A DNA stretch of 33,770 nucleotides from a virus. This document shows positions 14,186-33,770 of this stretch, piece after piece. Within the stretch, counting starts at the first letter, position 1; each line of letters begins with the position of its first letter. The DNA lies in IMG/VR virus record IMGVR_UViG_3300042402_001213, positions 1-33,770 of that record; one strand, given 5' to 3'. Made by a program: the position numbers and the translations under genes. Under the pieces are notes generated by a model, which saw nothing but the letters and a program-made list of their open reading frames with translations, searched no databases and was not told the DNA's origin.

Positions 14186-15700
14186 TCACCAGACTGGAAC
14201 GACACTAGGGCTATTATACGCATCAGGTTTGCGTGTCGCTCGGTCAAGAGCAATAACCATTGCAATACAAGCGTCAATCTTTCTACGACTTTTGCCTTTG
14301 CTTAGTCTCCACCCATTGTCCGTCATGCGTTGCGCTGCAGAAAGCACTTGGTCTGTGAAAACTGGCGAGCCGTTATGCACAATCTTGCTATTGATAATTA
14401 GTTCATAAGTGTGACCACAGGCTGGAATCATACGCTGACCACTCTGAGGGTATTCCACCATCGGAAGCCCATCGTCTATAAGGATTTCGGCAGAACGCTG
14501 AAAATAGGCAGGGTCATAGGCGAACTCTTTTATGTTGTAGTTCAAGTGGATTTCCCGAAGGTAATGCTCAATAGTCGCAACATCTACTGCCTTTTCGGAT
14601 GGATGCCAAATCTTGGCTGATACGGCTACCTTCTCTCCTTGGGGCTGAGCCATAACAACAGCAATGCTGTCGTGCTTCAATGCCATGTCAATCCCTACCC
14701 AAGTTTCTAGGTCAGGGTCTATTTCCACTTCACCAGTAAGTCTTTCCCATGCGCCTGCAGGAAGCCAACTTTCCTCAGCCCTTACCCATTGGTTCAAGCG
14801 AAACCTGCGAAATGCCATCTCGCTTGACTGCCGTGCAGAAGTTTCAAGGTCGTCTTCGTCTATCAACTTGGAAGCCAAGTTTGGATTGCACTTTTTCCAT
14901 ACAGCCCTATCTGTGATAGAACAATCTGCTGGTGCTTCCCACCAAAAGAATCCGAAGTTCTCATCCTCTTGTTCGCCCATAGCAACAGACTTGCCGTAAT
15001 CGTAAAGCCTGCCACAAAGAGTGTTGATGTCATAACCTGCTGTAGTAATTGAAACAATCATTGGGTCTACACGAGCACCCGAACCTAGCGTGAGTTGGTC
15101 ATAAAGGTCATCGTTTCTCTGTACCCATAGTTCGTCAAAGATAACTAGCGAAGGGTTTAGACCAGCCTGAGATTTAGCGTCTGCTGAAAGAACTCGATAC
15201 ACCGAGTTGAAAGCAGGGACTTCAATAGCGTCACGATAAACCTTGCAGTGGGCAGAAAGAACTGCAGACTTCACTACTTGTTCTCGGGCTTCATTGAACA
15301 CAATACGAGCCTGCTTACGGTCACCTGCAGCCGAATACACTTCTGCACCTGCCTCACCAGCGAACAGACCATAAAGCGCAAGGGCTGACCCCATTAGAGA
15401 TTTGCCTTGCTTTCTCGGTAGTCCAACAACTGCACGGCGATATCGCAAACGATTATTGTCTCGGCGTTCAAGCAAAGCCTTCAATAGCCACTGTTGCCAT
15501 TCAACAAACTCTAAAGGCTGGCCTGCCCTAACACCTTTAGAAACTCTTAGCCATTGACTAGCAAAATCAATAACATCATCACCGTCTGTAATGTTGCTAT
15601 GGCGTTTTGTGTAATAGGTCGGCTCCCACGCCTTTTTAGGCAGTAGCCCTCTTAGTTGCGATTCTGTCACGGAAGTCTTGGATTGCGTCATTGGAGACAT
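14186..15700 (-). CDS. terL: Terminase large subunit (504 aa)
   Basis: This is the packaging motor and nuclease. The ATPase part shows a Walker A loop GLPRKQGKS (residues 93-101), Walker B VIFDE (186-190) and a coupling segment MIVSITTAG. The nuclease part shows TWVGIDMAL with acidic D338, FAYDPAYF, and a late acidic residue in RKIDACIAMVIALDRA. AGGAA lies six bases before ATG 15700. The start overlaps the small subunit by 65 bases, which is long but supported by that site. Length is usual for HK97-like phages. Confidence 0.95.
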   Translation of the reverse strand: MSPMTQSKTSVTESQLRGLLPKKAWEPTYYTKRHSNITDGDDVIDFASQWLRVSKGVRAGQPLEFVEWQQWLLKALLERRDNNRLRYRRAVVGLPRKQGKSLMGSALALYGLFAGEAGAEVYSAAGDRKQARIVFNEAREQVVKSAVLSAHCKVYRDAIEVPAFNSVYRVLSADAKSQAGLNPSLVIFDELWVQRNDDLYDQLTLGSGARVDPMIVSITTAGYDINTLCGRLYDYGKSVAMGEQEDENFGFFWWEAPADCSITDRAVWKKCNPNLASKLIDEDDLETSARQSSEMAFRRFRLNQWVRAEESWLPAGAWERLTGEVEIDPDLETWVGIDMALKHDSIAVVMAQPQGEKVAVSAKIWHPSEKAVDVATIEHYLREIHLNYNIKEFAYDPAYFQRSAEILIDDGLPMVEYPQSGQRMIPACGHTYELIINSKIVHNGSPVFTDQVLSAAQRMTDNGWRLSKGKSRRKIDACIAMVIALDRATRKPDAYNSPSVVPVW

Positions 15701-16100
15701 TGTTCATTCCTAGTCGGGCTCGGTCTGTTGGTGAGAATCCTAGCGCAGAAAGGTTTTGAGCAATCATCTTTTCTAATGTCCTCAACGAGGCTCTGTCTCT
15801 CCACTCTTGTTCCCTAAACACTTTCGTTCTCAATACTGCTCGTTCATCAACTTGCTCGCAAGTCATCATCACCAACTCAATGTCGGTATCTCGGCGCAGC
15901 CATGCACAACCTGAAGTCCAAATAGAAGTCCACAGTTGAAGTCCTGGGCCATTGTCTATAAGAGGGCGATGTGGTTTAGGTATTTCACGATTTGCGATAA
16001 CAGGTATTACATCTGTTGAAGGTAGTTTTCTTCCACCCGGATTACCGATGCGAGCCTTCTGTTCAATTGGCTTGGGCTTACGCCCTCTTGTCTCAGCCAT
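15636..16100 (-). CDS. terS: Terminase small subunit (154 aa)
   Basis: Directly upstream of terL, this protein starts MAETRGRKPKPIEQKARIGN, a Gly/Arg/Lys-rich N-terminus typical of P27-family small terminases (then NPGGRKLP). Helices and a basic end follow (FRDRIATKRATA). It recognises the packaging site and recruits the large subunit. It overlaps the end of the HNH gene by 8 bases. Confidence 0.85.
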   Translation of the reverse strand: MAETRGRKPKPIEQKARIGNPGGRKLPSTDVIPVIANREIPKPHRPLIDNGPGLQLWTSIWTSGCAWLRRDTDIELVMMTCEQVDERAVLRTKVFREQEWRDRASLRTLEKMIAQNLSALGFSPTDRARLGMNNVSNDAIQDFRDRIATKRATA

Positions 16101-16395
16101 CTAATCTGTTTCCCCTGCGTGAGTTGCACGACCTATGTGCAGGCAATAACAAACTATCGGGGTTGCTAGGAACAACATGGTCTGCAGTCCATGGGTCATT
16201 GGCTCTTGCACCCTCGCCACAAATCCAACATCTACTGGCATTCATGCGCACTTCTCTTGCTCGTCTTCGGTAGTCGCCTGCGTAGTGTGGGCGTTCCTTT
16301 TTAGGCTTGAGACTTTCACGGTAGATACGACAGGAGTTACACCTTGAATCGCTAGTGACTAAGACGCCACAGCCCAAACAAGGCTTAGGAATCAC
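16093..16395 (-). CDS. HNH endonuclease next to terminase (100 aa)
   Basis: The protein has zinc-ligand pairs CLGC, CNSC and CWIC, and an HNH core: WTADHVVPSNPDSLLLPAHR followed by SCNSRRGN. Small HNH nucleases beside terminase are frequent in HK97-type cos phages, where they act with terminase in DNA cutting during packaging. That role is likely here. Its stop overlaps the terS start and its start overlaps the cupin stop (ATGA). Confidence 0.88.
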   Translation of the reverse strand: MIPKPCLGCGVLVTSDSRCNSCRIYRESLKPKKERPHYAGDYRRRAREVRMNASRCWICGEGARANDPWTADHVVPSNPDSLLLPAHRSCNSRRGNRLDG

Positions 16396-16922
16396 GACGC
16401 TTTAGTCGGGATATGTTCACATTGGATTTCGTCAAGCAATCCTTTTGCGCCACATATGCCACATTCCACTTCCCCAAGTTCGGTAGCGATTGCGTTGTAT
16501 TCAACTAACGCCATGCGCTCAGGGTCATCTGGAAGTTTATGTGGTGAGCCAACAGCAAGAATGTGATGTTCCTCAATAGCCCCAACAGCATGAGGGTGGT
16601 CACTTTCAATGAAGTAAACCTGCCCTGCGTGAGTTGGATAAATCTTAGAATCAACTGTGATAGTTCCCTTGCCTGCAATAACAATCAGCAGATGCGCCCC
16701 CGGATGCGTATGGGGTGGAAAGCCTGCTCCTGCAGGAACTGAGATGTGGTCTACACCTAGCGCACCACTACTGACTAATGGCCATGCAGTTGCTGTCGTG
16801 TTGTGCATATGCACAGTACCTTCGCCCTTGAAAGGCGTAATAGAACCATCTCCGTTGTCTGTTGCCCAATCAGCAATAATCAGATTGCCGTTTGCGTCTT
16901 TACCGTGTACTTGATTACTCAT
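16392..16922 (-). CDS. Cupin-domain protein with C-terminal Cys/His motif (176 aa)
   Basis: The cupin core spans about residues 50-125. The first motif is PPHTHPGAHLLIVIAGKG with H71, H73 and H77; His stands where the classical cupin has Glu. The second motif is VYFIESDHPHAVG with H109 and H111. A CxxC...CxH end (C154, C157, C168, H170) looks like a small zinc site. Cupins bind metals and act as isomerases, dioxygenases or sugar epimerases; the substrate here is unknown. I chose ATG 16922, which overlaps the ParB-like stop as ATGA, over an upstream in-frame Met. The coupling suggests it works with the ParB/IbrA-like genes. Confidence 0.75.
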   Translation of the reverse strand: MSNQVHGKDANGNLIIADWATDNGDGSITPFKGEGTVHMHNTTATAWPLVSSGALGVDHISVPAGAGFPPHTHPGAHLLIVIAGKGTITVDSKIYPTHAGQVYFIESDHPHAVGAIEEHHILAVGSPHKLPDDPERMALVEYNAIATELGEVECGICGAKGLLDEIQCEHIPTKAS

Positions 16923-17428
16923 CGTTTTTCTGCCACCCATGCTGGTTTGTAGTCATCGTTGCCTGCTCGCTTTATCATCTGCCCTCTATCGAGAAGGCGA
17001 CTTACTTCTTCTTTTTCCATACCCAATCTCTTTATAAGTTCGGCAGGCTCGATATTGAGTTCGTCAATAAGTTCAGTAACGATGTCTGCCATAGACATTA
17101 CATAATGTTCGCCTCTTGCACGGTTATGTCTAATGGTTGCCATGCGTTGGCGAGCAGGGTCAATCTCCTTGATGAACACTACTGGCACTAGACCGTCTGT
17201 GAGTTTGGCAACATCCTTGTCTGCCGAAACAGTCCAACGGTGGAATCCATCTACGATTTCTCCGTCAAGCCGAGCGACAATAGGTTGAGTCCAGCCGTCT
17301 TCCATAATGCTGACCTTCAATAAATTGAGTTCCGTCTTAGCCATTTTGTTCGGGTTGTAATCATTTGCTTTTAGCGTGGTGCGTTCTACCCACTGAACGC
17401 TTGCTATTGGTTGGTCTTCACGACTCAT
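16919..17428 (-). CDS. ParB/sulfiredoxin-like protein A (169 aa)
   Basis: A short ParB-like domain lies at about residues 5-110: LKANDYNPNKMAKTELNLLK, MEDGWTQPIVARLDG, EIVDGFHRWTVS, then an RMATIRHNRARG element. A helical end with a putative HTH (ELIKRLGMEKEEVSRLLDRG) follows. No ParA partner or centromere repeats are seen, so plasmid-style partition is unlikely. The gene overlaps the IbrA-like gene by 11 bases. In other phages and in the IbrAB pair, ParB-like proteins travel with PAPS-reductase-like enzymes. Nuclease, ATPase or CTPase function is unproven. Confidence 0.85.
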   Translation of the reverse strand: MSREDQPIASVQWVERTTLKANDYNPNKMAKTELNLLKVSIMEDGWTQPIVARLDGEIVDGFHRWTVSADKDVAKLTDGLVPVVFIKEIDPARQRMATIRHNRARGEHYVMSMADIVTELIDELNIEPAELIKRLGMEKEEVSRLLDRGQMIKRAGNDDYKPAWVAEKR

Positions 17429-18638
17429 CTTTTGTGCTCTTTTCTATGCTTTCTTTATATTTCTTCACCATTGAAGTTCTAGATGCCCCATCCGAAGTTG
17501 TCAATTTAGGAACAACTCTAGATTTGAAATCACCCTTAGACGCAACCTTCATAAGCATTCTCCATGAGATGCCTGTGACCGGATGTGGGGTGAAAAGTAT
17601 TGGGTCAGCAGTTCTGCGATAGTGACGATTGATATGTCCTTGCAGTTGTTTTGCTACAAACTTGCGTTCTTCAGGTGGGAACTTTTCTAGTTCGGCTAGA
17701 ACTTTCTGTTCCCAAGTTTCACCTTCAGCAAGGTCGTCTTCTTTCACGCCACCTTGACCTGCATGGTAGAGGGCACCTCTTGCGTATCGGGCTGCAGTCT
17801 TAGCCCCTGGCACTCGGTCGCCTAACTTATCCCATACATCAGGGAAGCATTTAGCGAACATCCACAAAGATTGCATTGGCTGTTCACCGTATGGTGGTGC
17901 GATGCGTTGAAGATGATGAGCCATGCCTGCTAACTCCATCATGTCGTAGCCTCGGTTGTAGTCCCACCCATGCAGTTTCGGTGCTCGCCACACATCTTGT
18001 GTAGACCAGTCGTAGATTGGATAGACCTTTGCCATGCCTTTCTCGTGTTCAATGATGTAGTTATCTACCTCTTTGCGAGTGACTGCTTGGCGACGACGGA
18101 TTGATTCATCTGCTCGGATGCCCATAATGAAACAGGTTCTGCCGTACTTGCGAGGTGGATAAAGGATTGGGTCGGTCTCGGTGAAAGGTAGTCGTGCGCT
18201 TGCAGGCCAAATAGTAAAACCTTCTGCCTCTGTTTTTGCTTCAGGTGGAAGTGGGCGAACCCATTTTTCTTCCATCTCGGGAGCCCATGGATGCCAAATA
18301 GAATCGCCTTCTGCTGATGAGCAACTGTTTCGGTGAGCGATAGGTAAGCACCACCAGTCCAAATCAATGTCCTCAATCTCTGATACACGCCTAACATATT
18401 CTTCTGTTTCGTAGGGGATTGCTTCCTCGTCAAAATGCTTGACCTTCAATGGCAATCGGTTTCTACGCCGTGCTTCTTCTAGCGCAAGGTTCAGACAGAC
18501 AGTCGAGTCTTTGCCACCCGAGAACGAAACGATAACTGTGTCAAATAAATCAAATGCCCTTGACACTCGTTCAACAGCCATCTCATAAACATTCTTGTCA
18601 ATGAAAGTCTGTCTTATATATTCTTTTGGGCGAGCCAC
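17418..18638 (-). CDS. IbrA-like phosphoadenosine-phosphosulfate reductase / N-type ATP pyrophosphatase (406 aa)
   Basis: Residues 30-55 hold the PP-loop IVSFSGGKDSTVCLNLA, the ATP-binding signature of PAPS reductases, DndC and related adenylating enzymes. Residues 60-220 continue the fold (ending YPIYDWSTQDVWRA). The rest matches the DUF3440-type region of IbrA-like proteins (MAHHLQRIAPPYGEQPMQSL, then a Lys/Arg-rich end). Length is usual for IbrA. It is flanked by two ParB-like genes with 11- and 25-base overlaps. Chemistry on nucleotide, tRNA or DNA with sulfur is possible. Sulfate assimilation is unlikely, since no reductant or sulfite genes are present. Confidence 0.85.
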   Translation of the reverse strand: MARPKEYIRQTFIDKNVYEMAVERVSRAFDLFDTVIVSFSGGKDSTVCLNLALEEARRRNRLPLKVKHFDEEAIPYETEEYVRRVSEIEDIDLDWWCLPIAHRNSCSSAEGDSIWHPWAPEMEEKWVRPLPPEAKTEAEGFTIWPASARLPFTETDPILYPPRKYGRTCFIMGIRADESIRRRQAVTRKEVDNYIIEHEKGMAKVYPIYDWSTQDVWRAPKLHGWDYNRGYDMMELAGMAHHLQRIAPPYGEQPMQSLWMFAKCFPDVWDKLGDRVPGAKTAARYARGALYHAGQGGVKEDDLAEGETWEQKVLAELEKFPPEERKFVAKQLQGHINRHYRRTADPILFTPHPVTGISWRMLMKVASKGDFKSRVVPKLTTSDGASRTSMVKKYKESIEKSTKDES

Positions 18639-19261
18639 TCTGCCACCACCTTCATAAGAGCGTCATTGCGATTTGTAATTCCTGTGGCGTGAAGGGCATC
18701 ACGCAAGGTGTCAAACTCGGCTGAGGTTAGATAGAACTGAGCAACCTTCGTGTCGTTAGTGACATGATTACTCTCGCTTTCCATCGGGTTATGTGCGCCT
18801 TCAGTATCAATGCCAGTAATACCCGACACTGCCATGTTGGCAATTGAGTGCGACTGTGTAGCAAGCATGTCGTCAAGGTCATCCTGATTCCAGACAAGAC
18901 CTTCCATGTCGTAGCCCCTAGCGAACTCGGAAAGAATTTCTGCCAGTGCGAAACTGTCGTAGTCGGCAAGGTCACTAGTGCGATTGTCGGCTAGCAAAAT
19001 ACGCAAGGCTCGGTCATCGTCCATGTCAAGTTCAATCACAGCAATCTTGTCCCACTTCAGCGACTTTGCAGCCGACCAAGTGTGGTTACCTGCAACGATA
19101 AAACCAGTTGATTTCTGCACAAGGATTGGTCGGTATTGACCGTGCGCTTCAAGTGAAGTGCAGATTGCACCTACATCACCTTGACGGACATTCTTCGGAT
19201 GGGGGGAGATGCTGTCTATCGGGACTGCGCTCTTGGTTAGTTCTTTTCGGATATTGCTCAT
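18614..19261 (-). CDS. ParB-like protein B, IbrB-type (215 aa)
   Basis: The ParB-like domain is at about residues 12-120: VPIDSISPHPKNVRQGDVGA, LEAHGQYRPILVQK, GFIVAGNHTWSAAKSL, then ALRILLADNRTSDLADYD. A linker and helical C-terminal part (about 160-215, FYLTSAEFDTLRDALHATGI) follow. This form is what accompanies IbrA in the IbrAB pair. It overlaps the IbrA-like gene by 25 bases and differs clearly from protein A (16919-17428). A weak GGAG lies 12 bases upstream of the ATG. It is first in the late-side cassette after the large non-coding region. Confidence 0.85.
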   Translation of the reverse strand: MSNIRKELTKSAVPIDSISPHPKNVRQGDVGAICTSLEAHGQYRPILVQKSTGFIVAGNHTWSAAKSLKWDKIAVIELDMDDDRALRILLADNRTSDLADYDSFALAEILSEFARGYDMEGLVWNQDDLDDMLATQSHSIANMAVSGITGIDTEGAHNPMESESNHVTNDTKVAQFYLTSAEFDTLRDALHATGITNRNDALMKVVAEWLAQKNI

Positions 19262-19355
19262 AGAGGGCTTTCACTCCATTAGGTCGGGTAATCCAAAACA
19301 ATATCAATGCGATATCGAGTGTGGCTAACAGGATTACGAAAATCATTGAGGCCAT
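19176..19355 (-). CDS. Possible small membrane protein overlapping ParB-like B (59 aa)
   Basis: This frame begins MASMIFVILLATLDIALILF, a clear single membrane segment, then WITRPNGVKALYEQYPKR. It runs 86 bases into the ParB-like gene in another frame. It could be a real leader gene, since it starts just after a TATAAA at 19376-19381. Against it are the long overlap, the lack of a good ribosome site and the Pro/Arg-rich end. Alternatively the region is only leader sequence of the ParB-like gene. Confidence 0.3.
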   Translation of the reverse strand: MASMIFVILLATLDIALILFWITRPNGVKALYEQYPKRTNQERSPDRQHLPPSEECPSR

Positions 19356-19375
19356 GCGAAACACTCTACACATGT

Positions 19376-19381
19376 TTTATA
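19376..19381 (-). promoter_or_regulatory. Candidate -10 element (TATAAA) upstream of the late-side cassette
   Basis: TATAAA on the minus strand lies 115 bases before the ParB-like B ATG, at the edge of the G-tract-rich non-coding region. There is no good TTGACA-like -35 at 17 bases, so it is only a weak promoter candidate for the transcript that would run into terminase and the structural genes. Confidence 0.3.
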
Positions 19382-19560
19382 AACAATGAAAGTATTTGCT
19401 CTGATGACTAATGCTAAATGCAGACGCTTATCCAGTTGAAGTCGCTCACAAAGAAACTTGTTTATTTCGCCGTTGCACGCTCTGTGACGGGGTAGGGGTG
19501 TCCGTCTGGCTCTCTCTCGGAAAAGAGGGGTGGGGGTCTGCCCTCATAGGGCGTCCTATT

Positions 19561-19603
19561 GGGGTGCTAGGGGGTCTAGGGGGGTGGTTGGGGTGGTAGG
19601 GGG
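19561..19603 (+). other. Potential G-quadruplex block (five G-tracts of four or more)
   Basis: G-runs lie at 19561-19564, 19570-19574, 19579-19584, 19590-19593 and 19599-19603 with spacers of 4-5 bases, an ideal four-tetrad quadruplex pattern. More G-runs lie upstream at 19489-19536. The G-rich strand is the plus strand, which is the template for the surrounding genes, so any quadruplex would form in DNA and the RNA would be C-rich. Confidence 0.6.
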
Positions 19604-19642
19604 TGATTGGTGGTGAGGACGGTCTATGACGGTCTAGGTGGT

Positions 19643-19668
19643 GTCTCAAGGTGTGTAGGTGTTGAGAC
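19643..19668. repeat. Inverted repeat gtctcaa / ttgagac
   Basis: This is a perfect 7-bp stem with a 12-base loop inside the non-coding region. There is no U-tract, so it is not an evident terminator; an operator or structural element is possible. Confidence 0.4.
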
Positions 19669-19944
19669 GACTCAGGTGGTGCTGTTTTGTGGGCGTGGGT
19701 GAAGGTGACGGATTGGTCTGTGAGAGCCGTCTATGGGCTTCTCAAGGGGCAATGGTGGGCGATTGGTGGTAGAGCAATAGGCGAGGGATTGCCGTGTTCA
19801 AGCGTGTTGCGAAGGCAATGCGATATGCAGCATCACATCTAGCCGATACAGATTACATCTGCGTATTGAGAGTAACTGCTAGTTCGTAGTTGTTCAGTCC
19901 GTCTGTGGAAGTGTGAGCGCATCATCATCTGTATGTAATGCCAA

Positions 19945-19990
19945 ATAGCCGAACCAAACATCTGTCGGGGTAGATGAATGATTCGGCTAT
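19945..19990. repeat. Hairpin atagccgaa / ttcggctat, second of a tandem pair
   Basis: A perfect 9-bp stem (19945-19953 with 19982-19990) encloses an inner pair catct/agatg (19959 region with 19971 region). It lies 4 bases beyond the hairpin at the end of the 97-aa gene. It is likely a terminator-like or RNA-stabilising structure at the 3' end of the early operon; no U-tract follows. Confidence 0.5.
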
Positions 19991-19994
19991 GAGG

Positions 19995-20026
19995 TGATTG
20001 GATTACTGGGGGAAGTTATCCAATCA
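19995..20026 (-). terminator. Hairpin starting at the stop codon of the 97-aa gene
   Basis: tgattggat (19995-20003) pairs with atccaatca (20018-20026), a perfect 9-bp stem with a 14-base loop. On the transcribed strand the stem begins with the TGA stop itself. A second 9-bp hairpin follows at once (19945-19990). There is no U-run, so intrinsic termination is uncertain. The position at the end of a long gene series and before the non-coding region supports a 3'-end function. Confidence 0.45.
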
Positions 20027-22742: not shown

Positions 22743-23510
22743 TTAGAACAGCGTTCGCTTGGAATAGTCAGGCATTACATACCGAGGTCGTACTGGTGGC
22801 TCCCAAGTAAGTTGCTGAACAAGTCGTCCATTGCAGAACCTGATGTATTCGCCTTCCTTTAGTTCGTAGACAAACTCAAACTCGATGCCACACTCTTTGG
22901 CACTTTGCAAAAGTATCTGTCTCGTTGAGGCGAGCACGACACTTCCTTTATGTGTCTGCCCGAACACAAGTGGTGACGAATCGAGTCTCGCAACATGCAG
23001 GTACTTGTTAGCCCCTCTAGTGTTCAACCACATCAGGGCTGCACCACCACGAATGTCACGCAAACGCTGATACAAGTCTTTGTTTGTCTTGTCGCCGTGA
23101 GCCAGCCAAGCAAATGCTGCTTCGCTATCCACTTGACCTTGACGCTTGTAGTTGCCAATCTTGTGTATGTCCTTGAACAGTTCGTCATCGTTACTGATGT
23201 GCCCATTGTGAACTCCGATAATTCCACGAACATCAATGGGGTGATTGTTCAACTGGTTGCTCGGGTCACCCTTTGTGGCGTAACGAGTATGAATGATTGC
23301 TGTTGCTCCGATGTCCTCTGCTAGTCCATCGGCAAGTTCAACTCCTGACATATCCATCTTTTGGATGTAAGTCTGTCGTTCGTTGTCATCGTGCCAAGCA
23401 ACCCCTGAAGCGTCACGACCTCTTACGGTCAATCCTCTCAGTAGTGCTTGTGCTAGTCGCCGAGCGTTTATCTCCTGCTCAACGATTTGAAATGCTCCGA
23501 TTCCACACAT
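22743..23510 (-). CDS. Class II glutamine amidotransferase (255 aa)
   Basis: The protein starts MCGIGAF, giving the N-terminal nucleophile Cys2 of Ntn-type amidotransferases once Met is removed. Further family motifs are VRGRDASGVAW, IIHTRYATKGDPSNQLNNHP, IGVHNGHISND and GQVDSEAAFAWL. The domain releases ammonia from glutamine and normally passes it to a partner synthase. Here no synthase domain is fused, and the gene directly upstream is an amidoligase, so the two may form a pair. AAGGAA precedes the ATG. Length is that of a stand-alone GATase domain. Confidence 0.88.
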   Translation of the reverse strand: MCGIGAFQIVEQEINARRLAQALLRGLTVRGRDASGVAWHDDNERQTYIQKMDMSGVELADGLAEDIGATAIIHTRYATKGDPSNQLNNHPIDVRGIIGVHNGHISNDDELFKDIHKIGNYKRQGQVDSEAAFAWLAHGDKTNKDLYQRLRDIRGGAALMWLNTRGANKYLHVARLDSSPLVFGQTHKGSVVLASTRQILLQSAKECGIEFEFVYELKEGEYIRFCNGRLVQQLTWEPPVRPRYVMPDYSKRTLF

Positions 23511-23545
23511 GTTTATGTTTCCTTTCTTTCCTTTTTTGTTAGGTC

Positions 23546-25054
23546 TTAGTTACGCAAGAAACTTGCGATTAGTTCTTTTACTTGGTTAGGCATGTTGCTT
23601 TCAACTGCAATGTTGGTGAGCAACTGTTGTGGCGAGTTACCGTTCTGCAGGAGGAACATCATCGTGCTGTTCAACGGCGTGAACGACTCAGGCTGTTCGC
23701 AGGCCTTGAAGAAGGCTTGGTTCAAGCAGAGCCAAGCGAACATCTTCTTAGGGTTGAGGCAACCTTCCAACTGTCTGTTCTCAAATGTTCCGTACTTCAC
23801 CCAACTTGCAAGGTTCAGTGAGTAGTAACGGTCTACCGAGCCAACCTCGCCTCGGTTACAAGTGTCGCCAGATGCATCCGTGCCCTGATTGCCTGCTCTT
23901 GTGTAGAAGTGCTCGGCGTACATGTCTGCACTTGTTGAACTGCGATGGTGAGTCCAGCGTGTATTTGTTCGTGTGAGGTGACAGAAGGAATCGAACAGCC
24001 GTTGGTAACGCTGATGAGCCTCAATGATTCTTGCACGGTCAGAAGGTGTGAGATGCTCAACTCCGAAGTGAACATGGCCTCCACAAGCACGAGTGATTCT
24101 TGCACCTGCTCGCTTGAGTGACAGCATCACACGGCGTACCGTAAGGAATCCGTCTGCGTGTCGCATCGGTGGGCTAACCACTTCAGCACCTGCACTCACT
24201 GTTCCATCGGGAACTACTTTCCATTGTGCAAAGTTTGCATGGCCATAGTTCGTACTGGCATACACCTCAATGTCAGGCATCTGTGTAATCAAGGTGTGCG
24301 CTCTGTTCACGCTCAAGCCAAGCAACTCAATCTCGTGACCGAACGAGTAGCCGAGGCTGTTGAACCACGACAATGACTCTTCGTCTAAGTAACTCGGCAT
24401 GCTGTTCATGTCTTCTTCTACTTCACGAACTGTTGTTCTGCCAGTGGCACGGACACTTGCTCGCTGTTGCGCTGCTGAACGGTAAGGCTCAAGACCCCAT
24501 GTTTGGCAGGTGCGCACATACTCTGACCCCATAGCGTTTGCTGTCTGTGCGTAAAAGCTAAGCACGCCGTAACTACGAGGTACAGGCAATGTTCCTGCAA
24601 TGTGGGTGAGTGCAATGTGCAGGTATGAGCGCATCCACACAATCAACGCAGTTCGTGAAACCACGGCTCTTGCTGACAATGGAACATTACCCAGCGTCGA
24701 TGTTCCTAACTTAGGGAACACAAGGTACTGAGTCGCACTTGAACCAGTAGCAGGCATCAGTGGGTGAACACCGTTAGCGTTGCTTTGGTTCTGAACAATC
24801 TGTAGGTGGCAGACTGTCGTTGAAAAGTCTGTACCGTTGGCTTGCAGTTGAAGGCAAGTCTTGATTATGGAATTGCTATCAATGTTCTGTTGGTCGGTGA
24901 ACAATGCTGTTGGCAAGGCCATTCTGATGTAGTGACCATCGGGAACGAACTGGAGGTCGTCACCATGGACTGGTAAGTTGAAGCGAACATTCGCTTCATC
25001 AACTGGACGGTTCAGGATAAATCCTTGACCCATCGTTGGATAGTTGGTAGGCAT
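23546..25054 (-). CDS. Amidoligase-like (COOH-NH2 ligase) protein (502 aa)
   Basis: Residues about 235-435 carry the pattern of the phage/bacterial amidoligase family (glutamine-synthetase/GCS-like fold): GHEIELLGL with metal-ligand Glu241/Glu243, WKVVPDGTVSAGAEVVSPPM (278-297), CGGHVHFGVEHL (324-335) and a late YGTFENRQLEG. These enzymes join a carboxylate to an amine using ATP. The first 230 residues, which start MPTNYPTMGQGFILNRPVDE, do not resemble a domain I know. Such ligases are known near class II amidotransferases in phages, predicted to make peptide-like or modified products. The substrate is unknown. Confidence 0.8.
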   Translation of the reverse strand: MPTNYPTMGQGFILNRPVDEANVRFNLPVHGDDLQFVPDGHYIRMALPTALFTDQQNIDSNSIIKTCLQLQANGTDFSTTVCHLQIVQNQSNANGVHPLMPATGSSATQYLVFPKLGTSTLGNVPLSARAVVSRTALIVWMRSYLHIALTHIAGTLPVPRSYGVLSFYAQTANAMGSEYVRTCQTWGLEPYRSAAQQRASVRATGRTTVREVEEDMNSMPSYLDEESLSWFNSLGYSFGHEIELLGLSVNRAHTLITQMPDIEVYASTNYGHANFAQWKVVPDGTVSAGAEVVSPPMRHADGFLTVRRVMLSLKRAGARITRACGGHVHFGVEHLTPSDRARIIEAHQRYQRLFDSFCHLTRTNTRWTHHRSSTSADMYAEHFYTRAGNQGTDASGDTCNRGEVGSVDRYYSLNLASWVKYGTFENRQLEGCLNPKKMFAWLCLNQAFFKACEQPESFTPLNSTMMFLLQNGNSPQQLLTNIAVESNMPNQVKELIASFLRN

Positions 25055-32520: not shown

Positions 32521-33666
32521 TTAGCGTATGTTTTGTTTGCTTGGTGCAGGTACAGATGCGACAGCCAGCAATCCTGATACGGCGATAACTGCACGGCGAG
32601 TTCCGACAGGAATAGATGACCCGATTGGAACATAAGTATCTGTTTTGCCGTTGAACAAATCAACTTCGTTCTCAAAAGCCTTACGAACTTCTGTCGGCGC
32701 ACCTTGCACAGCCTCAACTAGTTGCTCTGCTTGTGCATCTGAAAGTTCGGCGACATCCAACGATTCAAAGATTTCCGTTGCTGTTTCCTGCGTCACTGCA
32801 TTGAGCACCGTAACGCTCGTAGCGAGGGCTAAAGCGTCATCAGGGGTAATACCGTCTTCCACACTCTGAGCCACGATAGAAGCGATTTCAGATTGAGGTA
32901 ACTCGTCAATGTTGGAAAGCAGTTCTGCGACTACTGGTGAAACTTGAGCCGGCAGAATAGTAGTTGATGTGATAACCTCTGGCTGTGATGTTGTTGTTGT
33001 GGTTATCAGCACTGGTGCAAGGGTTGTTGTGCTTGTTGTCGTACTTGTCGTGGAAGGAACGACAGAAGTGGTAGTAGTTGCTTGGGTCGTACTCGTAGTA
33101 GCGATTGTATTAGGGATTGTTGTGGATGCGTAAACTACTGGTTCTAATGTTGTGGTTGTCTCTAGGCGTAGCGTTGTGGTCGTTATTGGGATTGTTGTGG
33201 TTGTGGATGTGGTGGTCGTGGTTGAAGTGGTTGTCGTAGAAGTAGATGTAGTAGTTGTTGCTTCAGTGGTGGAAGTAGATGTTTGACCTGCCCCATTGAA
33301 CCCAAGTTCATACTGCAGATTCCACCCACCATCTGTACGCCAAGCGTTAGGGTCGCCACAACAAATACCAGCCCTTAGCCGATACTTTCCTGCAGGTACA
33401 GCCAGAGAAATATAGGACTGCAAGCCGAAACTGTCATCGTTCTGAGCGAGCAGAGTTCCTTCTTCGCTGTAGAGCCACAACATCGGGTCAGAGTTGTATC
33501 CAGTAATCATGTAAGTCTGCGCTACAAACTGTGTCGGCTCAAGATAGTCAAACCAAAAATCTGTTGGCTCAGTAACAATTGGGTTCTCGGCTGATGCAGG
33601 CAATGGGAACATAGCCAATATCGCTACTGGTGCGAACACAAGCCAAAAACTACGGCGTATTCTCAT
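32521..33666 (-). CDS. Secreted Thr-rich stalk protein (381 aa)
   Basis: ATG 33666 (MRIRRSFWLVFAPVAILAMF) forms an ATGA overlap with the DUF2746-like gene across the contig join. Residues 1-26 are a signal peptide ending ASA. Residues 27-125 look like a PPC-type beta domain (DPMLWLYSEEGTLLAQNDDS, VPAGKYRLRAGICCGDP). Residues about 130-245 are a Thr/Ser-rich stalk (e.g. TTTTSTSTTTT). Then a helical region and a hydrophobic C-terminal segment (RAVIAVSGLLAVASVPA). Such stalks are typical of secreted Acidimicrobiia proteins. In a phage it may alter the host surface or help release. The role is unknown. Confidence 0.75.
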   Translation of the reverse strand: MRIRRSFWLVFAPVAILAMFPLPASAENPIVTEPTDFWFDYLEPTQFVAQTYMITGYNSDPMLWLYSEEGTLLAQNDDSFGLQSYISLAVPAGKYRLRAGICCGDPNAWRTDGGWNLQYELGFNGAGQTSTSTTEATTTTSTSTTTTSTTTTTSTTTTIPITTTTLRLETTTTLEPVVYASTTIPNTIATTSTTQATTTTSVVPSTTSTTTSTTTLAPVLITTTTTSQPEVITSTTILPAQVSPVVAELLSNIDELPQSEIASIVAQSVEDGITPDDALALATSVTVLNAVTQETATEIFESLDVAELSDAQAEQLVEAVQGAPTEVRKAFENEVDLFNGKTDTYVPIGSSIPVGTRRAVIAVSGLLAVASVPAPSKQNIR

Positions 33667-33770
33667 TTGTCTTTGTGTGCGTGCCAATCAATGTGTGTGC
33701 CTAGTCTGCTATCTACCTTGTCTATTTTGGTTATGACGCTATCTAGTTTGTCTGAATTGCTGGCGTGGTC
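33591..33770. repeat. Right copy of 180-bp terminal direct repeat
   Basis: This is the second copy of the contig-end repeat (see 1-180). It holds the 5' end of the Thr-rich secreted-protein gene (ATG at 33666) and the 3' part of the DUF2746-like gene. The two mismatches against the left copy both fall in the DUF2746-like frame and both change the residue: T47 to K and T33 to S, left copy to right copy. That fits strain variation in the sampled population, or end-of-read errors. Confidence 0.9.
33663..33770 (-). CDS. 3' fragment of the DUF2746-like gene (cut by contig end)
   Basis: This repeats bases 73-180 with the two mismatches at 33718 and 33760. It encodes the charged C-terminal part and stop of the 73-267 gene; the start lies across the join. 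Not an extra gene. Confidence 0.8.
   Translation of the reverse strand, partial: DHASNSDKLDSVITKIDKVDSRLGTHIDWHAHKDK

Follow-up and report, generated by a model that had tools for sequence, protein, structure and literature searches.

The window analyzed here is the whole of IMG/VR record IMGVR_UViG_3300042402_001213, a stretch of 33,770 bases from an uncultured virus that is possibly a fragment, and its minus strand carries a compact block of seven genes in which an IbrA-like enzyme, a ParB-like protein and a cupin stand between a second ParB-like protein and the packaging genes, an arrangement that we consider a candidate DNA-modification cassette. All gene calls, here and in related loci, are mechanical open reading frames (ORFs). 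Read along the minus strand, the block comprises ParB1 (18614..19261), IbrA (17418..18638), ParB2, which is IbrB (16919..17428), a single-domain cupin (16392..16922), a small HNH protein on the terminase side (16093..16395; weak assignment from PHROG HNH matches), the terminase small subunit terS (15636..16100; PF25673, phrog_83) and the terminase large subunit terL (14186..15700; PF03354, PF20441, phrog_9). Successive genes overlap by 25, 11, 4, 4, 8, and 65 nucleotides, with ParB2 overlapping IbrA by 11 and the HNH gene overlapping terS by 8; the first ATG of the cupin frame lies at 16940, and we chose the ATG at 16922, which gives the usual ATGA overlap. The five ORFs that an initial annotation of this DNA had described as joined by overlaps of 4 to 25 nucleotides and leading into terS are indeed present.

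The full gene order is kept in three close contigs (L002–L004; 88–95% protein identity, IbrA 95%) and in two more distant ones (L100 and L101; about 57–72% protein identity, IbrA 67%), and the ratio of nonsynonymous to synonymous substitution (dN/dS) between the window and L004 is 0.05–0.10 for all genes. Because the order recurs in independent contigs and the genes are under purifying selection, the arrangement is real and selected, more than a product of chance. The window terL is closest to those of actinobacterial phages (a Pontimonas phage at 38.5%), and an Rfam scan of the window returned no known RNA.

IbrA matches PF01507 (PAPS_reduct, E = 8.5e-13) and PF11922 (DUF3440, E = 2e-6), both past the cut-off, as well as phrog_2302 (E = 2e-80), and its dN/dS is 0.05. 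The AlphaFold2 model has a mean predicted local distance difference test score (pLDDT) of 88.1 and a predicted template modelling score (pTM) of 0.81; its N-terminal part matches the CysH/PAPS reductase, FAD synthase and ATP sulfurylase folds, with weaker matches to the tRNA enzymes TilS (MesJ), TtuA and NcsA. The PP-loop SGGKDS noted in the initial annotation is intact in the window and in all 64 sequences aligned: within the motif SFSGGKDS (residues 38–45; 18504..18527, minus strand), F39, S40, G42, K43, D44 and S45 are invariant, as are G173, R175, E178 and S179 of a second motif, GIRADES (residues 173–179; 18102..18122, minus strand), and R182 beyond it. No cysteine is invariant in the 14 phage sequences and no cysteine pair is conserved in the 64; the best-kept cysteine, C97, is found in 61 of the 64 and is alanine in the E. 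coli phage, Kovu, Amjad_SA and CV-1-33 proteins.

The two ParB-like proteins both match ParB_N and differ from each other, as had been claimed, since ParB1 (a ParB/Srx-fold protein; Pfam ParB_N E = 2e-6, phrog_723 E = 8e-39) and IbrB (phrog_2159 E = 3e-61) fall into separate PHROGs. IbrB combines a ParB-fold domain with a helical, helix-turn-helix (HTH)-like part and pairs directly with IbrA: of 79 viral loci, 73 have the two within 600 bp of each other, and of 80 bacterial-genome loci, 77 have them within 700 bp; the IbrB model, of moderate confidence (pLDDT 81.6, pTM 0.64), matches the ParB and Noc CTPases, including the helical DNA-binding part. Each protein has invariant residues, with the canonical GERR motif replaced in both: by AGNHT in ParB1 (19079..19093, minus strand; A57, G58 and N59 invariant) and by DGFHR in IbrB (residues 60–64; 17237..17251, minus strand; D60, G61, H63 and R64 invariant in 51 sequences). 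According to Kaljevic et al. (PMC12704722), ParB-fold proteins bind CTP, ATP or GTP, and fusion to DNA methyltransferase domains is frequent among the phage members; DpdB and DndB are ParB-superfamily partners in two known DNA-modification systems (PMC12839542, PMC10853773).

Many records and one paper (PMC10434257) use the names PAPS reductase and ParB for such proteins, which would make IbrA an auxiliary enzyme of sulfate assimilation and the ParB-like genes orphan partition proteins. This is very improbable. IbrA misses the curated CysH cut-offs (30.5 vs. 154 and 26.7 vs. 165.1), keeps SGGKDS intact and lacks a Cys motif; both ParB-like proteins fall short of the ParB TIGR00180 cut-off of 58.45 bits (30.6 and 22.8 bits), and ParA, absent according to the initial annotation, was likewise not seen among the ORFs scanned, which were not all of those present. 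On the curated cut-offs we reject a plain PAPS-reductase auxiliary gene as well as a partition role.

To place these genes in context, we collected 80 loci from IMG/VR by IbrA and 80 by ParB1 (in each case the best 80 of a larger number) and annotated them with models built from the window proteins. Across loci L100–L177, ParB1 sits ahead of HNH-terS-terL whether IbrA is present or absent; beyond the close kin of the window, its relatives in dozens of related virus contigs keep the order ParB1-[slot]-HNH-terS-terL, mostly without IbrA, and HNH lies upstream of terS in every ParB1-only locus in which terS was found. Because HNH and ParB1 remain beside terS and terL without IbrA, we assign HNH to the packaging machinery, outside the IbrA cassette; it directly precedes terS in the window just as packaging-associated HNH genes do in related contigs lacking IbrA, with nothing notably different. 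The view of all five genes as a single unit, put forward in the initial annotation, is thereby not supported: the five-gene order stands in L002–L004, L100 and L101, and elsewhere ParB1 and HNH mostly occur without IbrA. ParB1 and HNH go with the packaging genes, and IbrA-ParB2-cupin fills the slot between them in the window, L002–L004, L100 and L101, occupying it entirely in all of these but L100, which has the same order.

Pfam matches among 56 slot ORFs (ParB1 to HNH) of related contigs included Tet_JBP (7), QueC (5), TET-associated glycosyltransferase (TAGT, 4), GTP cyclohydrolase I (FolE, 3), C5 cytosine methylase (3), radical SAM (3), amino acid:DNA transferase (ADDT, 2) and PTPS (1); methyltransferases and acetyltransferases were also present. 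Summing these eight families, on the assumption that no two share an ORF, assigns DNA-modification families to 28 of the 56 slot ORFs, as against two of 56 control ORFs (three when a PAPS_reduct match is counted), the controls being ORFs of at least 150 amino acids that precede ParB1 in those loci; Fisher p values range from 1.6e-8 to 1.1e-7 when the relatedness of the contigs is ignored. Contigs whose ParB1 is nearest to that of the window carry cytosine-hypermodification cassettes of TET, TAGT and C5 methylase in the same ParB1-[slot]-HNH-terS-terL frame, whereas the window slot contains only IbrA, ParB2 and cupin, with no methylase, 2-oxoglutarate oxygenase (TET), glycosyltransferase (TAGT), DpdA/Que or ADDT enzyme. 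Stand-alone PP-loop proteins of the Asn_synthase type account for six of the 56 slot ORFs, one of which (L117, 7450–8310) adjoins a C5 methylase, and we know of no described function for such an enzyme in a DNA-modification slot. A fusion-like slot ORF with matches to an ABC-ATPase and a GNAT acetyltransferase occurs in L102 (603–1721), and an ABC-like protein likewise lies in the slot of Gordonia phage AnClar.

The same exchange is visible in cultured phages, within Bclasvirinae for Rosebushvirus, Pipefishvirus and others. Between gene 1, which is ParB1-like, and the terminase, Rosebushvirus Coffee carries DpdA-QueC-QueD-QueE-FolE, Quesadillavirus PenguinLover67 the same set plus an adenylate kinase, Coopervirus and Acadianvirus a TGT (phrog_6059), Pipefishvirus Obutu IbrA-IbrB, and Gordonia phage MakoManhole aGPT-PPlase2. 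In Pegunavirus, by contrast, the record has nothing but an adenylate kinase ahead of the terminase. The flanks of the exchanged segment are homologous between Coffee and Obutu (gene 1 at 48% identity, terminase at 60%), and the window ParB1 is in turn a homologue of Coffee gene 1 (35%). The 7-deazaguanine cassettes of Rosebushvirus and Quesadillavirus, whose DNA in the Rosebush type we take to carry that base, share their slot with IbrA-IbrB; they include a PP-loop enzyme, QueC, but have only that fold in common with the IbrA cassette, which lacks TGT, QueD, QueE and FolE. Arthrobacter phage Kovu has the order ParB-IbrA-ParB-acetyltransferase-terS-terL, and the Mycobacterium abscessus prophage prophi79-1 has ParB, ParB, IbrA, ParB and a methyltransferase ahead of its terminase, so that a ParB-IbrA-ParB order at the terminase, which cultured mycobacteriophages and an Arthrobacter phage share, is not unusual. 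Serratia phage eta, for which HPLC (high-performance liquid chromatography) found no modified bases and one ParB gene is reported, was considered as a counter-example and set aside, as IbrA is not mentioned in the accessible part of that report (PMC3918226).

IbrA proteins of this context form a group of their own. In an unrooted tree of 76 IbrA proteins, a single branch (100/99) splits 42 ParB1-context proteins (the window, metagenomic and actinophage sequences, the label of a few rows within L019–L059 being taken from their group) from 34 classical ones (those of E. coli, Streptococcus, Lactobacillus and other phages and contigs), and the window protein is not a member of the annotated classical clade. 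Classical IbrA/IbrB, known in E. coli as YbdN/YbdM, has the same IbrA fold, PP-loop, DUF3440 and adjacent IbrB; the window differs in its separate clade, in the added ParB1 and cupin and in its packaging-side slot, whereas classical pairs are mostly located elsewhere and lack both additions. The association of the two ParB-like proteins and IbrA with a cupin, pointed out in the initial annotation, is borne out by the survey: 32 of the 41 viral loci with IbrA in a ParB1 context have a cupin no more than 4 kb from IbrA, whereas none of 38 other IbrA loci and none of 76 ParB1-only loci has one. The window cupin (Cupin_2, E = 3e-12) has a C-terminal CxxC...CxH tail and a metal motif, HTHPGAH (residues 71–77; 16692..16712, minus strand), in which H71, H73 and H77 are, with H111, invariant among homologues from IbrA loci; the alternative form is a double-length cupin of ~234–273 amino acids between ParB1 and IbrA. 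Neither cupin type matched any record among 50,697 phage genomes, and in the survey the cupin version is confined to uncultured viruses and bacterial genome contigs (e.g., one Streptomyces). TerL lies within 4 kb downstream in 25 of 30 ParB1-context loci vs. 2 of 32 others, a contrast inflated by terL models that derive from the first group; three or more PHROG groups are represented among the terL proteins near ParB1-context IbrA, so descent within a single phage lineage does not by itself account for the neighbourhood.

The only functional label that records attach to this family is that of a co-activator of prophage gene expression, and the ParB/Noc-like, DNA-binding fold of IbrB would suit a regulator of phage or host genes that has come to lie near the terminase by accident. 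We consider this unlikely: the window IbrA is outside the classical clade, its cupin linkage fits a regulator poorly, and a plain regulator would not need a strictly conserved ATP-pyrophosphatase site, nor would its position be expected to swap with biosynthetic pathways.

Further genes found between ParB1 and IbrA include TctC solute-binding proteins, sodium–solute symporters, an aldehyde dehydrogenase, an inositol-1-phosphate synthase-domain protein and a second PP-loop protein. A TctC protein or sodium–solute symporter stands there in six loci (L039, L040, L042, L020, L021, L024; for L040 judged by its identical layout), an odd cargo for a phage. One subtype, represented by L022 and by a contig of Streptomyces sp. 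MP131-18 (L186), has the order ParB1-cupin-second PP-loop-class II glutamine amidotransferase-IbrA, with a further IbrA match within that order in L022. The amidotransferase and the cargo genes point to small-molecule, perhaps nitrogen, chemistry. Such transporters and metabolic enzymes would also accord with a counter-defence or nucleotide-pool enzyme that adenylates a free metabolite, a nucleotide or a host protein, and small-molecule kinases such as SerK are among the ParB/Srx proteins (PMC5120207); given the enrichment of DNA-modification genes in the slot, which adjoins ParB1 and the terminase in several phage groups, we regard a substrate other than DNA as quite improbable.

A second chemistry to be weighed is sulfur modification of DNA, as phosphorothioate or thio-base, with a DndC/SspD-like IbrA served by ParB-like helpers. 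IbrA and DndC share the PP-loop/PAPS-reductase fold (PADLOC DndC, E = 2e-9), which is also common to the thiolases TtuA, NcsA and LarE; thiolation likewise runs via adenylation; and the Dnd/Ssp systems also couple a PP-loop enzyme, DndC, to a ParB-superfamily partner, DndB (PMC10853773). However, IbrA scores 24.2 bits against the NCBIfam DndC cut-off of 290.4 (TIGR03183), it has no invariant cysteine, C97 itself being alanine in several phage proteins, and neither a cysteine desulfurase (DndA/SspA) nor DndD or DndE was seen among the scanned ORFs, although some ORFs were not scanned, the contig may be incomplete and host IscS could serve. No sulfur-carrier or acyl carrier protein (ACP)-like small ORF was recognised beside IbrA in Obutu, Ben11 or prophi79-1, and the subtype that gains an amidotransferase gains no sulfur-relay gene. 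The missed DndC and CysH cut-offs, the lack of a family-wide cysteine pair and the amidotransferase disfavour the sulfur chemistry suggested in the initial annotation, which we judge unlikely.

We hypothesize instead that IbrA-IbrB-cupin is a phage DNA-hypermodification cassette, with an adenylation mechanism, housed in a modular slot between ParB1 and HNH-terS-terL, and put the probability of this reading at roughly 0.6. The role in DNA modification that the initial annotation had offered as a testable idea gains support from a slot that otherwise holds hypermodification enzymes and from the exchange of DpdA/Que for IbrA-IbrB in cultured phages, and the enzyme set probably represents an undescribed chemical modification of phage DNA. 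TilS, MnmA and GMP synthetase adenylate carbonyl groups of their substrates, and by analogy IbrA, as a PP-loop ATP-pyrophosphatase, may adenylate either a carbonyl on a DNA base or a carboxylate on a small donor. A nucleophile would then be joined to the base, an amine or other small molecule being likelier than sulfur, and the cupin may make, trim or oxidise the donor. IbrB, with its ParB fold and HTH-like helices, and ParB1 would serve as DNA-binding subunits, switched by nucleotides, that deliver IbrA to replicated phage DNA ahead of packaging, and the modified product would shield virion DNA from host nucleases. In this proposal, DNA as the substrate, the reaction, the donor and the benefit are all inferred, the observations being gene content, order, conservation, slot exchange, the intact PP-loop and the folds. 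More tentatively, and with slightly more doubt than belief, we suggest a new class of base hypermodification in which IbrA and ParB-fold partners attach a small molecule to phage DNA just before packaging, the molecule being supplied by interchangeable cargo sets (cupin, symporter, TctC binding protein, aldehyde dehydrogenase, glutamine amidotransferase).

Several considerations weigh against a hypermodification cassette. Its position next to packaging and modification genes is guilt by association, the contigs are related, so that the enrichment tests overstate independence, and no conserved feature of IbrA points by itself to DNA. Classical IbrA/IbrB is also found at a distance from packaging genes, as well as on the chromosome of E. 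coli K-12 (ybdNM), for which we know of no matching DNA modification; a DNA substrate is accordingly not required for the family. We are also aware of no nucleoside measurement for any phage with the IbrA-IbrB-cupin cassette.

Between the early genes and ParB1 is a region of ~0.75 kb (19262–20023, minus strand) without a clear gene, whose middle is very C-rich and G-poor and of which L003 and L004 retain blocks; 439 nucleotides of it fold somewhat better than shuffled sequences (z = −2.4) without an Rfam match, and the region could be a promoter, a pac/cos-like site or a leader RNA. The start of ParB1 is overlapped, in a different frame, by a small ORF (~19176–19373, minus strand) that includes a hydrophobic stretch (..IFVILLATLDIALILFWITRPNG..) and is apparently kept in L004 (ITRPNG, LYEQYP), making a small membrane protein possible. 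Farther upstream (22743–25054, minus strand), a class II glutamine amidotransferase is preceded by an Amidoligase_2 protein, a pair also found upstream of ParB1 in L004, L106, L107, L127 and L142 that may form another small-molecule or peptide-modifying system in these phages. The protein of 388 residues encoded at 32521–33687 (minus strand) looks secreted, contains long stretches rich in Thr and Ser, and matches no PHROG.

IbrA/IbrB occurs widely in both phages and bacteria, and the papers found on IbrA/IbrB, DUF3440, YbdN/YbdM and ParB with PAPS reductase yielded annotations and co-mentions, with no biochemistry beyond the co-activator label. The finding that one IbrA clade sits in a DNA-modification slot makes a specific and cheap test possible, with the IbrA-IbrB core accessible in mycobacteriophages. 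It also suggests that ParB1 may be a modification-agnostic partner, connecting ParB-fold NTPases, base modification and the terminase.

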